NCBI GenBank assembly: GCA_002284855.1
Contig: CP015603.1
Coordinates: forward strand, 744,001-808,000
From: Actinobacteria bacterium IMCC25003
Lineage (GTDB): Bacteria > Actinomycetota > Actinomycetes > Nanopelagicales > Nanopelagicaceae
Direction: 5' to 3'
Length of the DNA: 64,000 nucleotides
Numbering within the stretch: the first letter of the stretch is position 1; each line of letters begins with the position of its first letter. The notes beneath the pieces were generated by a model. The model was not told the origin of the DNA. It made no database searches and was given only the letters and a program-made list of their open reading frames with translations. Below are positions 29,784 to 34,775 of this stretch, piece by piece. Made by a program: the position numbers and the translations under genes.

Positions 29784-30872
29784 GTGAAAAACTCACCTTT
29801 ACTTCAAAGGCATATAGACCTTCAGGCGAAGATGGCCGATTTCGGTGGATGGTTGATGCCTATCGAATATCCAGGAGCTGGTGTCCTCGCCGAGCACACT
29901 GCTGTTCGTGAACGGGTGGGACTCTTCGATGTCTCACATTTAGGAAAGGTGAGCGTCACAGGTGATGGCGCGCTCGAATTCCTCAATGCAATATTTACCA
30001 ATGATCTCAATCGCATTGTCGATAGCAAGGCTCAATACACCTTGCTCTGCAATCCCGATGGCGGTGTCGTGGACGACCTTATTGCCTATCGAAATTCAGA
30101 TTCAGATTTCTTCCTGATTCCCAATGCAGCAAACACGACCGATGTTGTCAGGGTTCTCATTGAGAACGTTCCTTCGGGAATATCAGTTACTAATCTCCAC
30201 GAAAGTTTTGCTGTGCTCGCTCTTCAAGGTCCTCAAGCAGTCGAAGTCATTCGCAGCTTAGGAATTAATCCAACAATGGATTACATGGCATTCGCTCATG
30301 TCTCCATCGCCGGCTGCGATGTCATTCTCTGTCGTACTGGTTATACCGGCGAACATGGATATGAATTAGTCCCAACCTGGAGCGATGCACCCGTTGTCTG
30401 GGATGCACTCGTTGAAGCGATGAAGCCTTTCGACGGACTCATTTGTGGTCTAGGAGCTCGTGACACATTGCGCACCGAGATGGGTTATCCGCTTCACGGC
30501 CATGAACTCTCTCTAGAGATTTCTCCAGTGCAGGCAAGTGCTGGCTGGGCAATCGGGTGGAAGAAAGAGAGTTTCCGAGGTTCTGATGTTCTGCAATCTC
30601 AGAGAGAAGCCGGAACAGTTCGAACTCTTAAAGCCTTGAAATCAAATGATCGTGGCATTCCCCGCGCAGGAATGGCGGTCAAGGCAGCTGATGGACACGA
30701 AATCGGCGTAGTAACGAGCGGAACTTTCTCACCCTCACTCAAAGTTGGTATTGCGCTAGCGCTCCTTGATCCAGAGTACGCAGTAGGAGATTTAGTCACG
30801 ATCGATGTTCGCGGACGCGAATCAACAGCGACGATTAGCGCGCTGCCTTTTGTACCTTCACATGTTCGATAA
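29784..30872 (+). CDS. gcvT: Aminomethyltransferase (glycine cleavage T-protein)
   Basis: This 362-residue enzyme releases ammonia from the aminomethyl-lipoyl H-protein and passes the C1 unit to tetrahydrofolate. Family blocks are MADFGGWLMPIEYPG, LFDVSHLGKV (catalytic-region Asp), YTGEHGYELV, GLGARDTLRTEMGYPLHGHEL and the C-terminal G-I-V-TSGTFSPSL stretch. It starts at a leaderless GTG. gcvH and gcvP are not in the window. The 3' end overlaps the convergent ECF S-component gene by 38 bases. Confidence 0.94.
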   Translation: MKNSPLLQRHIDLQAKMADFGGWLMPIEYPGAGVLAEHTAVRERVGLFDVSHLGKVSVTGDGALEFLNAIFTNDLNRIVDSKAQYTLLCNPDGGVVDDLIAYRNSDSDFFLIPNAANTTDVVRVLIENVPSGISVTNLHESFAVLALQGPQAVEVIRSLGINPTMDYMAFAHVSIAGCDVILCRTGYTGEHGYELVPTWSDAPVVWDALVEAMKPFDGLICGLGARDTLRTEMGYPLHGHELSLEISPVQASAGWAIGWKKESFRGSDVLQSQREAGTVRTLKALKSNDRGIPRAGMAVKAADGHEIGVVTSGTFSPSLKVGIALALLDPEYAVGDLVTIDVRGRESTATISALPFVPSHVR

Positions 30873-31644
30873 ATTCAATCGGAGTTAAGAAAGCTGCCCG
30901 CGTATGGGATCGACGAAGAGTCTGAAGAATTGGCTTTCCAGCAATTGTAATGAGTGAAGCGGTAAATACAGCGCGCGGAATATCCCAGGCCATTGCCGAT
31001 AAGAAGTGATACGAAAAGAAACGTGAGAGATTTTCACTTATCGGCGCACCTGCAAGGTATGAGAGCTGAGTATCTGCACCCAACGCCCAAGGCCAAAATT
31101 GAAGATCCATGGCGACACCAAAGAACTCAGCAGCAACAACGGCATACAGTGCAAGGATAAATATTTCTCTCTTGCCACGAACCATTCGTGGAATAAGTGC
31201 GACACCTAAACCGATCCAGCCAGCTGCAAAAGATTGATATGCAACCCATGGACCTAAGCCACCAGTCAGAATAGCTGAGAGGAACATGGAGAGTACTCCC
31301 AACAAGAAACCAAAAGATGGACCGAAGACTCTGGCTGAGAGAATCAAGACAAACCACATAGGTTCAATTCCCACAGCTCCAGTTCCCATTGGGCGCAGAG
31401 CTGCAATAAGCGCGGTAAGAACAGCTAAGAGCGCGACAGATTTACTATCTAATTCATTATTACTGACGCTCACCATAAGGAGAAGAAGCGCAAAGGGAGT
31501 TGCCAGAAGGAATATCCATTGGGGATGACCTTGCTTCTCGTGGATTAAGAATGGCCAGATGAAAGCGAGGGCGCTGATGGCACTTGTGAAAATGAGTGCA
31601 ATCAGCGATGCGCCTTTAAATGTGAAGATTCCAGAAGTCTTCAT
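30835..31644 (-). CDS. ECF transporter S component (probable cobalamin/precursor binding)
   Basis: 269 residues with about six hydrophobic helices, as expected for a substrate-capture subunit that pairs with EcfT and EcfA. The region TGAVGIEPMWFVLILSARVFGPSFGFLLG is typical of ECF S components. It overlaps the fused EcfA stop by 4 bases (ATGA), and the whole operon lies behind a cobalamin riboswitch, so B12 or a corrinoid precursor is the likely ligand. The ligand assignment rests on the riboswitch and the operon, not on motifs in this protein. Confidence 0.8.
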   Translation of the reverse strand: MKTSGIFTFKGASLIALIFTSAISALAFIWPFLIHEKQGHPQWIFLLATPFALLLLMVSVSNNELDSKSVALLAVLTALIAALRPMGTGAVGIEPMWFVLILSARVFGPSFGFLLGVLSMFLSAILTGGLGPWVAYQSFAAGWIGLGVALIPRMVRGKREIFILALYAVVAAEFFGVAMDLQFWPWALGADTQLSYLAGAPISENLSRFFSYHFLSAMAWDIPRAVFTASLITIAGKPILQTLRRSHTRAAFLTPIEFIEHVKVQKAAR

Positions 31645-33245
31645 GCCGAGCCCTCAATTGCGTGAACAACATCGGCAACAGTCAACCAAGGTTTGGGAGA
31701 CATGACCTTTGCAACTTGAGGGGCAAAGGCCGGTGATGAGAGTAAAACGTCAAGCGTTGTTCCATCAGCGACGATTTCACCCTCTGCAAGGAAGAGGACT
31801 CGGTCTGCGAGTTCTGCCACAAGTTCGACATCGTGCGTTGCTAGGAGAACTGGTCGATTGAACTGCCGTGCATATTCTTTGAGAGCGATTGCAAAGAGGT
31901 TCTTGGCGCGGTAATCGAGGCCACGAGTTGGTTCATCGAGAACAAGCACGTCGGGATTTCCAGAGAGCACAATGCTTAAAACGAGCGCTAATCGTTGACC
32001 TTCAGATAGGTCATTGGGATGCGCATGCAGAGAGATATGTGGAACTAAGCGATTGAGAAGTGCCGCGGTAGAACCAAGTGCAATCTCATTATTGCGATCT
32101 GCAAGAAGGCACTCTTCTTCGACGCTTGATGCGAAGAGAAGATCACTAGGTTCTTGGGGGACATAGCCAATCGCTCGCCTGCGAGCTGCGCCTTTGAGAA
32201 GGGTCGGATCTGCGCCATTGACCCTGATTTCACCCGAGTGTGGTGAGTGAAGTCCAACAATGCAGTGAAGCAAAGTGCTCTTACCGGCGCCATTACGGCC
32301 CATGATGGCGACGATTTCACAGTGGTTGATAACAGCGTTAACTTTATTCAGCGCGCTCTTCTCAGAGTAAGAGTGCGAAACTCGTGAAATAGCAATTGCT
32401 GGTGATACTTCTAGTGATGGTGAAAGAGGACGTGAGTACTGACTATTTCGAATATCTTCAGTCTGACGCCTGACCTCACGAACGCTCGTTCCGATTTCAG
32501 AGAGATTGAGAGCGCGGGCTAATTTCACAATCGGTGGAACAAGTGCTGAGCGCTTCAGAATTTCATCGGCCGTACCGATAGAAGTATCACCATTGCCTTC
32601 GATATAGATAATACGATCGACAAATTGAATGACACGTTCCAAGCGATGTTCAGCGATGATGACTGTAACGCTGAGGTCATGAACGAGGCGATGCAAGACC
32701 GAGAGAACTTCTTCAGCAGCAATTGGGTCGAGAGCGCTTGTAGGTTCATCGAGAACCAAAACCTTCGGGTGCATGACAAGAGCGGCGCCGATTGCTACTC
32801 GTTGCTGTTCGCCACCGCTTAGCGTTGCAATAGAACGGTTACGAAGCGCGCTCAAACTCAGGAGATCGAGAACTTCCTCGACTCGCTTTCGCATGACATC
32901 AGGAGGGAAGTTAAGAGCTTCCATGCTAAATGCCAACTCTTCTTCGACAATATCTGTGACAAAACCATTGATGGGATTCTGTCCAACAATTCCCACAAGA
33001 TGGGCAAGAGAGCCAGGCTTTACTGATCTGGTCGAGATCCCATCGACAGAGATATCACCAGCCAAAATTCCACCCGTGTGATGGGGGACTAGACCATTAA
33101 TGAGACGCAGGAGAGATGATTTACCAGAGCCAGTTTCGCCCATGACCAAGACCATCTCACCCTCTTCAATTTGAAAGGAGAGATCTTCAAGAATCGTCTT
33201 AGTTGATTGTGGATATATGAGTGAAACGTTGGAGAAGGTAATCAT
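31641..33245 (-). CDS. ECF transporter fused double ATPase (EcfA-EcfA')
   Basis: About 534 residues with two ABC ATPase domains in one chain. Domain 1: Walker A GETGSGKSSLLRL, signature LSGGEQQRVAIG, Walker B VLVLDEPTSALD, His in IIAEHRLE. Domain 2: Walker A GRNGAGKSTLLHC, signature DLSEGQRLALV, Walker B VLVLDEPTRGLD, His in LATHDVE. The true start is ATG 33245, which overlaps the EcfT stop (ATGA); a longer frame to 33311 lies inside ecfT. Fused EcfA pairs are usual in actinobacterial dedicated ECF systems. Confidence 0.92.
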   Translation of the reverse strand: MITFSNVSLIYPQSTKTILEDLSFQIEEGEMVLVMGETGSGKSSLLRLINGLVPHHTGGILAGDISVDGISTRSVKPGSLAHLVGIVGQNPINGFVTDIVEEELAFSMEALNFPPDVMRKRVEEVLDLLSLSALRNRSIATLSGGEQQRVAIGAALVMHPKVLVLDEPTSALDPIAAEEVLSVLHRLVHDLSVTVIIAEHRLERVIQFVDRIIYIEGNGDTSIGTADEILKRSALVPPIVKLARALNLSEIGTSVREVRRQTEDIRNSQYSRPLSPSLEVSPAIAISRVSHSYSEKSALNKVNAVINHCEIVAIMGRNGAGKSTLLHCIVGLHSPHSGEIRVNGADPTLLKGAARRRAIGYVPQEPSDLLFASSVEEECLLADRNNEIALGSTAALLNRLVPHISLHAHPNDLSEGQRLALVLSIVLSGNPDVLVLDEPTRGLDYRAKNLFAIALKEYARQFNRPVLLATHDVELVAELADRVLFLAEGEIVADGTTLDVLLSSPAFAPQVAKVMSPKPWLTVADVVHAIEGSA

Positions 33246-33985
33246 CGAGTCACCATCGTTACTGCCGCTGCAGTGGTGAGAAGAAGAGCGAGATTGTCGC
33301 GCAGCAACCATGGCTGCGGCCTATACCGGGAACGTTTTCTGCTGATTCCATAGCCACGAGCATCCATCGCGGCTGCGAGCTGAAGTGAGCGAGAGAGGGA
33401 CTCCTCAAGTAGCGGGATTGCTATCGAGCGAAGTTCAATCTTTTCAAAACCACGTAACTTTTGCGCAGTTCGGATACGGCGAGCGCTGGTTGCAAGTTGC
33501 GGAAAGAGAGATGTGGCGATGACGAGAGTGATGCCAATTTCATAGATAAAGGAGGGAGTGACGCGTAACAACTTGTGAGGACTAGTGAGGGATGTTGCGG
33601 CTCCGAATAAGGCAATCATTGTTGCAATGATGACGCCTTCATGAAGAGAAGAAGAAAGTCTTTCTAGAGTTACTACACCGCCGATACGAATACCGGGCAT
33701 CCAGGATGGGAGATCAAGAATAGGAATTGAGAAGAGTTTTGTGCCAGGAATCGGAACTCCAATAAGGATTCCGACGACGGAACGTATCGTCAAGATAATG
33801 GCACCGATGCGCAGCGAGAGAAGAAAACTTCTCTGCCAGGGCGAGCCATCGCGACGAATATAGACAAGAAGCGCCACCGCACCCACTATCGCGAGTGCGA
33901 TAAATGCGTTATCGAGCGCGACAACTCCAATTGCGAGGAGCATCGCGCAGATCCACAAGGTCAGTGGATGCAGTGGCTTCTTCAT
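33242..33985 (-). CDS. ECF transporter T component (CbiQ/EcfT family)
   Basis: 247 residues: about five membrane helices around a cytoplasmic region with the coupling motif AMDARGYG (the A-R-G signature that contacts the ATPases), preceded by RTAQKLRGFEKIE. It is the membrane scaffold that links the S component to EcfA. It lies 11 bases downstream of the secreted-protein gene and overlaps ecfA. Together these form a four-gene operon on the minus strand. Confidence 0.9.
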   Translation of the reverse strand: MKKPLHPLTLWICAMLLAIGVVALDNAFIALAIVGAVALLVYIRRDGSPWQRSFLLSLRIGAIILTIRSVVGILIGVPIPGTKLFSIPILDLPSWMPGIRIGGVVTLERLSSSLHEGVIIATMIALFGAATSLTSPHKLLRVTPSFIYEIGITLVIATSLFPQLATSARRIRTAQKLRGFEKIELRSIAIPLLEESLSRSLQLAAAMDARGYGISRKRSRYRPQPWLLRDNLALLLTTAAAVTMVTR

Positions 33986-33996
33986 CTATTAATCTC

Positions 33997-34536
33997 TTAC
34001 TTCTTGAGTAGTGCAGCAGGAGTTTCGATCTCTACTCCACATTCCTTCTTTGGATATCCGTTGAAACCACAGATAAGACCAGAACTTGCTGCACGCACTT
34101 TGACTACCTGTGCCAATACATCAATTCCTTGTGAACTCTTGGCAGTTGTCACACAACGAACAATGGGCTTCTGAACCTTTTCACCTTTAGGCGCATAAGC
34201 AGGATTTCCAAATTCAATGACGAGGCCGATTCGCTTGGTGTCGGAATCAGCCTTTGTCTTGCCGCAGATTGAGGCAAACGATGGCTTTGTCATAGGAGCT
34301 ACAGATGGAACATCATCGCTACTGAATACAAAAGACCATCCTTCAACCGCCCCATCTTCAATATCGACAGTAGGTCCAGTCATGGCTGCTTTCCATGTGG
34401 TTGAACCGGGAGCTGCCTGGAAGTAGCCCCAGTAACGCCAACCCTTTGTAGCAGCTTGAGATGATGGCATAGCCACCAATTGCGATGTGATGAGAACGAT
34501 TGCAATGGCAATCTTCTGAATAGATGTTTTTTTCAT
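33997..34536 (-). CDS. Secreted protein of the ECF operon (SCO2322-like)
   Basis: About 179 residues from ATG 34536, which has AGGAG 8 bases upstream; a longer frame to 34566 has no such site. A Sec signal peptide (basic KKTSIQK, hydrophobic core, cleavage near SSQA-ATKG) is clear. The mature domain begins WRYWGYFQAAPG and holds four cysteines (ICGK, VRCVT, LICGF, KECGV) that could form two disulfides. It recalls the secreted SCO2322-type proteins beside ECF genes in streptomycetes, recognised from memory. A role in capturing the vitamin outside the membrane is possible but unproven. Confidence 0.75.
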   Translation of the reverse strand: MKKTSIQKIAIAIVLITSQLVAMPSSQAATKGWRYWGYFQAAPGSTTWKAAMTGPTVDIEDGAVEGWSFVFSSDDVPSVAPMTKPSFASICGKTKADSDTKRIGLVIEFGNPAYAPKGEKVQKPIVRCVTTAKSSQGIDVLAQVVKVRAASSGLICGFNGYPKKECGVEIETPAALLKK

Positions 34537-34566
34537 TGTGTGAACTCCTAAATAGAAGAGTCTCAC

Positions 34567-34775
34567 AGGGGTAGCTCGCTAGCGGTCGGCCGAATACGCC
34601 AAATACCTTTGGACTACACCCCGCAAACCTCGGCGGGTGTTGGTCATAATCAAATATCGCCAATAGGTAATCCGACTTGAACGGTTCATTTCTGAACTGT
34701 CTTACGGTTGCGGGTCAGCGTCGGATTTGCACCGAACTTCCCCTACTGGAATATCTATTAAGTTGTGGGGGTACC
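34567..34775 (-). ncRNA. Cobalamin riboswitch
   Basis: On the minus strand the conserved B12-aptamer core is plain: GGGGAAGTTC-GGTGCAAATCC followed by GACGCTGACCCGCAACCGTAA (34744-34701), then AGTCGGATTACCTATTGG (about 34683-34665) for the distal conserved segment. A stable hairpin at 34639-34617 (CACCCGC with GCGGGGTG) and sequence near the AGGAG of the secreted-protein gene probably form the expression platform. Boundaries are approximate. It should repress the ECF operon when cobalamin is plentiful. Confidence 0.9.

Follow-up and report, generated by a model that had tools for sequence, protein, structure and literature searches.

ECF transporters are usually thought to depend on the S component alone. 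In transcobalamin, the two domains sandwich one cobalamin between them, the β domain binding first and the α domain closing afterwards (PMC5599065, PMC11107200). On its own, the β domain also binds cobalamin, less tightly than the complete protein and with virtually no change of shape (PMC5599065, PMC11107200). In bacteria, Burroughs et al. defined the SLBB superfamily in 2007 and described transcobalamin-like proteins in which the toroid is located N- or C-terminally (PMC1796856). They reported operons with CbiO/CbiQ-like genes as well as an absence of B12 synthesis, and proposed B12 scavenging (PMC1796856); the general idea of bacterial transcobalamin-like B12 scavenging is therefore theirs. 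The crystal structure of the S component CbrT has been described (PMC5997447). In addition, passages of a 2017 study of acI genomes report an ECF module behind cobalamin riboswitches, putatively for cobalamin (PMC5301498). Here we describe an operon from a complete, single-contig actinobacterial genome of 1.354 Mb, located in a 64,000-nucleotide stretch of DNA (the window), in which a predicted cobalamin ECF importer is accompanied by a secreted protein. Genome size, phylum and gene context suggest that the host, a lake actinobacterium, belongs to the Nanopelagicales (acI, 'Ca. Planktophila'-like).

Results

Organization of the operon

The ECF operon spans positions 30835–34775 on the minus strand and comprises, in order of transcription, an AdoCbl riboswitch, a predicted hairpin, a secreted protein, EcfT, a fused EcfA-EcfA and an S component. 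The EcfT membrane component (33242–33985, minus strand) matches PF02361 CbiQ with 39.9 bits against a threshold of 25. The fused double ATPase (31641–33245, minus strand, start ATG at 33245) contains two ABC_tran stretches and corresponds to TIGR04520/04521; its TIGR04520 score of 314.7 bits lies 0.3 bits under the equivalog cut-off of 315. The S component, predicted to be cobalamin-specific (30835–31644, minus strand), matches PF07155 with 41.5 bits against 26.7. EcfT, two EcfA and an S component encoded in one operon, as given here by PF02361, the two ABC_tran stretches and PF07155, make this a group I ECF transporter. The gene of the secreted protein ends 11 nt from EcfT, and overlaps of 4 nt join EcfT to EcfA-EcfA and EcfA-EcfA to the S component, in agreement with the initial annotation, which had noted at these coordinates the close coupling of EcfT, a fused double EcfA and an S component with a secreted protein bearing four cysteines. 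The flanking gene order, AKR on one side of SCO2322-T-AA-S and GcvT on the other, is shared without exception by the 20 relatives compared, within the reach of their contigs.

Riboswitch and putative expression platform

A cobalamin riboswitch ahead of the operon had likewise been proposed, and the Rfam search bears it out. The aptamer (34609–34769, minus strand) aligns with RF01482 over model positions 1–149 of 149 and scores 51.5 bits against a gathering threshold of 50 (E 1.6e-6 for the whole window). The cobalamin model RF00174 reaches 29.3 bits, under its cut-off of 31.5. Although the RF01482 score is near the threshold, a chance match is ruled out because an AdoCbl or Cobalamin riboswitch occupies the same position in nine of ten relatives from the same family, with scores of 33–66 bits (52–66 bits for RF01482). 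Cobalamin riboswitches are also found in many SCO2322-ECF loci across classes of the Actinomycetota and often head the operon.

Folding of the RNA between 34520 and 34600 predicts a hairpin, UGUGAGACUC/GAGUUCACA, at 34539–34567 (minus strand) in which the ribosome-binding site, AGGAG, is base-paired to the upstream arm GUGAGACUC. The 5' arm, GUGAGRCUC, is nearly invariant among 11 relatives. This predicted hairpin is likely to be the expression platform, acting by control of translation.

The secreted protein and its relatives

The protein encoded at 33997–34536 (minus strand) comprises 179 amino acids, with a signal peptide and four cysteines, and belongs to the SCO2322 family (NCBIfam NF040672, 162 bits against a cut-off of 85, model positions 2–144). 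The names of this family and of the SCO2321 family (NF053823) carry no function. Pfam, including DUF4430, yielded no match for the window's protein nor for a canonical relative, and the alignment of the SCO2322 family with DUF4430 by hhalign is weak (probability 34) but in register. Sequence matches of the β family to PsaF in the PDB are short, with E 0.03 or worse, and were dismissed as chance.

The AlphaFold model of a non-permuted β domain by itself (L136) has a pLDDT of 92.8, and its top 17 Foldseek matches comprise transcobalamin, intrinsic factor, the human TC β domain in isolation (5np4, 5no0) and 3u7z, with probabilities of 0.98–1.00. The 18th match has a probability of 0.47; the E-values are modest (3e-3 upward) and the ranking is clean. 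A natural fusion of toroid and SCO2322 domain (L110) was modeled with a pLDDT of 82, the β part lying mostly at 84–97 and the region 269–324 being poor. Transcobalamin or intrinsic factor accounts for every one of its 12 best Foldseek matches in the PDB, with E values of 2e-9 to 2e-7 over ~480 columns. The superposition has a large RMSD, ~22 Å, probably because it is uncertain how the two domains of the fusion are oriented relative to one another. Matches in Pfam and among PDB sequences had suggested a squalene-cyclase-like enzyme for the upstream toroid; this candidate was rejected, as transcobalamin and intrinsic factor rank first once the β domain is attached, with squalene-hopene cyclases behind them (2.9e-7). 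The transcobalamin fold is thus predicted for non-permuted relatives and is carried over to the window's protein by sequence profile. The best reading of the latter is a predicted circularly permuted transcobalamin/intrinsic-factor β domain, a β-grasp of the SLBB/DUF4430 type.

Circular permutation

The order of the two halves in most Actinomycetota is [VVVDF...C...FICRI.G.P...C][YWSYW...W.YS..G......VEGWSF]. The halves are exchanged in the window's protein, in Streptomyces SCO2322 and in two further loci (L033 and L034). An HMM built from either form matches the other form as two segments in swapped order. With the halves in their native order, hhalign aligns the permuted and non-permuted families over 51 columns (E 1.8e-13); once the halves are exchanged, the alignment covers 115 columns (E 2.9e-19). 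Both E-values are pairwise and uncalibrated against a database. All four cysteines have counterparts in the permuted and non-permuted forms, as judged by eye. The toroids of Streptomyces and of one related genus (g253) match in swapped order as well. A scan of viral contigs for permuted relatives found none.

Distribution across the Actinomycetota

Among 397 genomes of the phylum, the NF040672 search returned 22 matches above the cut-off together with further partial, weaker ones. In nearly all fetched loci, strong and weak matches alike, the T, AA and S genes directly follow the SCO2322-like gene. Scanning the genomes with the S component instead gave 80 named loci, including Amycolatopsis, Micromonospora, Nocardioides, Streptomyces, Janibacter and Acidimicrobiia, 70 of which could be scored in that they contain T and at least 1.5 kb of upstream sequence. 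A SCO2322-like gene lies directly 5' of T and ends within 400 nt of it in 66 of these 70 loci, with a median gap of 24 nt, and a secreted α/α-toroid protein is encoded upstream in 56. This toroid closely resembles both NCBIfam SCO2321 (NF053823) and the squalene-cyclase/prenyltransferase toroids. Toroid and SCO2322 domain also occur as one polypeptide, with the toroid first in four loci (L110, L111, L041 and L051) and the β domain first in three (L108, L126 and L145). The fusions of L041 and L051 also carry cell-wall-binding repeats. In other classes (L085–L102), a true DUF4430 protein takes the position of SCO2322 beside T, AA and S, often with a toroid, and both kinds are found within one locus in L036, L085 and L129.

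Co-occurrence and losses within the order

Across 121 genomes of the order, SCO2322 was detected in 76 and the S component in 75. The two are either both present or both absent, with three mismatches that all fall in fragmented assemblies. The toroid was looked for in the window's genome and none was found. It is present in three of the 121 genomes, all of genus g253, which belongs to the same family as the window's genome; there its gene immediately precedes SCO2322 and follows the same riboswitch, and its detection serves as a positive control for the absence from the window's genome. Most of the order has lost the toroid.

In genera g253, g252, g256 and g257, SCO2322 carries a C-terminal membrane anchor, which is absent from the window's genus and from g247. 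The four cysteines are retained across all compared genera, anchored or not. As a counter-point, an anchorless secreted protein could diffuse off a planktonic cell.

B12 requirement and ligand of the S component

The host genome encodes a MetH-type B12-dependent methionine synthase and a single TP_methylase gene (287 aa), which is probably RsmI. With this one gene of RsmI size as the only TP_methylase, the host very probably cannot make the corrin ring, and the reliance on outside B12 suggested in the initial annotation is upheld by these two observations. Within the order, MetH and the transporter are not distributed together: the operon occurs in several genomes that have no MetH, and MetH in several genera that have no operon. 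The use of MetH as a marker that follows the transporter is therefore not borne out, and other B12 users and importers must exist.

The S component forms one family across the phylum, with a mean column identity of 61%. A profile of this family found no match among PDB sequences at E ≤ 10 and no sequence relation to CbrT. A riboflavin or folate importer, suggested by Pfam and NCBIfam matches of the S component, was discarded; these matches are sub-threshold or generic and conflict with the riboswitches.

Discussion

The operon is most plausibly a riboswitch-controlled cobalamin importer that combines a group I ECF transporter with a dedicated extracellular B12 binder of the transcobalamin β-domain type, a reading to which we assign a probability of roughly three in four. 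Binding of B12, its hand-over to the S component and the control of translation are steps that we infer. Since the secreted protein resembles the B12-gripping half of transcobalamin, ECF importers of this type probably have an extracellular B12 catcher. In most Actinomycetota, SCO2322 and the secreted SCO2321-like toroid, the counterpart of the transcobalamin α domain, would together enclose a single cobalamin at the cell surface before passing it to the S component. With toroid and anchor gone, the lone β domain of the streamlined genome would perform the first, lower-affinity capture as well as the delivery. At high levels of adenosylcobalamin the operon would be switched off, with the riboswitch masking the ribosome-binding site. 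A further proposition, which we consider slightly better than an even bet, is that an ECF transporter has, as its dedicated extracellular subunit for cobalamin binding, a lone permuted transcobalamin β domain, kept by a very abundant lake lineage that discarded the toroid.

The strict linkage of the secreted protein to EcfT-EcfAA-S and their joint presence or absence would also fit an extracytoplasmic partner in assembly or gating of the ECF complex, comparable to CbiN and similar small accessory subunits of cobalt ECF transporters, the toroid being the sole binder where it is present. A structural partner of this kind would persist in toroid-less streamlined genomes, as the lone β domain does. 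However, the relatives share the fold of the transcobalamin β domain, and the human domain is able to bind cobalamin in isolation (PMC5599065), which makes such a role unlikely. Another question concerns the ligand, as S component and binder might import, in place of cobalamin itself, cobalt, cobinamide or some other corrinoid or precursor. The riboflavin family is the best Pfam match of the S component, the latter has no solved relative by sequence, and cobinamide is also bound by some animal B12 carriers (PMC4350170). Cobalamin riboswitches at or near the operon heads across classes and the transcobalamin-type fold nonetheless argue for cobalamin, and cobalt would not supply B12 on its own because the genome appears to be without corrin synthesis; a different ligand is thus improbable.

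Absence of the C-terminal anchor from the window's genus, with several sister genera having one, would be compatible with a protein released into the surroundings, where it would hold or shield B12 as a shared or defensive binder that does not feed the cell's own importer. This is highly improbable given the invariant operon with the importer and their joint loss, and release would presumably be costly for a sparse planktonic cell. The dedicated cobalamin binder of the importer hence remains the preferred interpretation.

If it is correct, two orphan families of Actinomycetota, SCO2321 and SCO2322, gain a concrete function and a link to human B12 carriers, and the cobalamin ECF importers that Gram-positive bacteria use would appear to have an extracellular catcher. 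Having lost both toroid and anchor, streamlined lake bacteria would serve as a natural experiment that shows how small a part of the carrier suffices, and the exchange of halves would be a case of circular permutation arising in nature within the fold of a B12 carrier.

Comparison with known systems

The initial annotation regarded the extracellular member as being without precedent. This view does not hold: relatives of the protein have the fold of the transcobalamin β domain, and kindred proteins beside CbiO/CbiQ were predicted in 2007 (PMC1796856). Apart from that paper, the search of open-licence papers on SCO2322, and on transcobalamin together with ECF, retrieved nothing on the pairing. 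The assignment of SCO2322 and SCO2321 to the transcobalamin-like kind was not found in the open-licence literature searched, and an earlier description elsewhere is possible. The same literature yielded neither the permutation of the β domain, nor the Actinomycetota-wide link to cobalamin riboswitches, nor the finding that streamlined lake bacteria have lost toroid and anchor. What is new here is the permuted, toroid-less, riboswitch-controlled actinobacterial branch of the predicted bacterial transcobalamin-like systems.

The surface proteins of the SLBB/DUF4430 type (PMC1796856) are secreted β-grasp domains, with or without a toroid, beside genes for ECF ATPases and EcfT, as is predicted for the window's operon. 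The words Streptomyces and permutation are both missing from the text of that paper, and the Pfam model DUF4430 misses SCO2322; riboswitch, permutation and toroid loss are additions of the present analysis. The cobalamin ECF module of acI genomes (PMC5301498) is the same kind of locus and probably stems from the same lineage, the secreted protein not being discussed in the passages of that source considered here. ECF-CbrT of Lactobacillus delbrueckii (PMC5997447) shares ECF-type cobalamin import with the window's operon. However, CbrT is of group II and uses an ECF module common to other S components, whereas in the window the S component is served by a module of its own and by an extracellular partner. 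Transcobalamin, intrinsic factor and haptocorrin of animals (2bb5, 2pmv, 5np4) combine an α/α toroid with a β-grasp domain, and the same combination is predicted for the actinobacterial toroid and SCO2322. The actinobacterial pair differs from the animal carriers in being bacterial, usually made of two polypeptides and coupled to an ECF importer, and the predicted β domain of the window's protein differs further in its circular permutation and in having no toroid partner.

Gene arrangement and domain permutation at ECF loci

At the 3′ border of the operon, the S-component gene and gcvT are convergent and share 38 nt at their 3′ ends (30835–30872), an overlap with a similar counterpart in nearly all examined relatives. 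Circular permutation, which marks the SCO2322-family beta domain of the window, also appears to affect the alpha/alpha-toroid (SCO2321-like) at loci L032, L050, L220 and L234–L236, in the same genomes as the permuted beta domain. The toroid and DUF4430 genes lie 3′ (downstream) of the S component in four Streptomycetaceae cassettes (L036, L112, L129 and L147), and genome G163 carries two cassettes, L036 and one of the SCO2321/SCO2322 type (L035). Four cobalamin riboswitches within 12 kb (locus L044, 4173–15899) surround a single ECF cassette that contains two toroids and two SCO2322-like genes. At loci L089–L100, the DUF4430 gene is preceded, at a distance of ~3 kb, by a strong cobalamin riboswitch (89–116 bits), with other genes intervening.

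B12 users and a possible B12-responsive regulator

Across the order, genera g248, g249, g251 and g254 possess the B12-type methionine synthase MetH and lack both SCO2322 and an S component of the operon's type, whereas several genomes of the window's genus possess the operon without a MetH match. This pattern implies further B12 importers and further B12 users. A gene for a MerR-type regulator, adjoined by an IMP dehydrogenase-like gene, is located at about 488.8–490.0 kb of contig C1 of genome G000 (640–1845 of locus L054). Its match to the B12-binding domain is weak (26.9 bits, below the cut-off of 32.1), and the protein resembles the light- or B12-responsive regulators of the CarH/LitR type.
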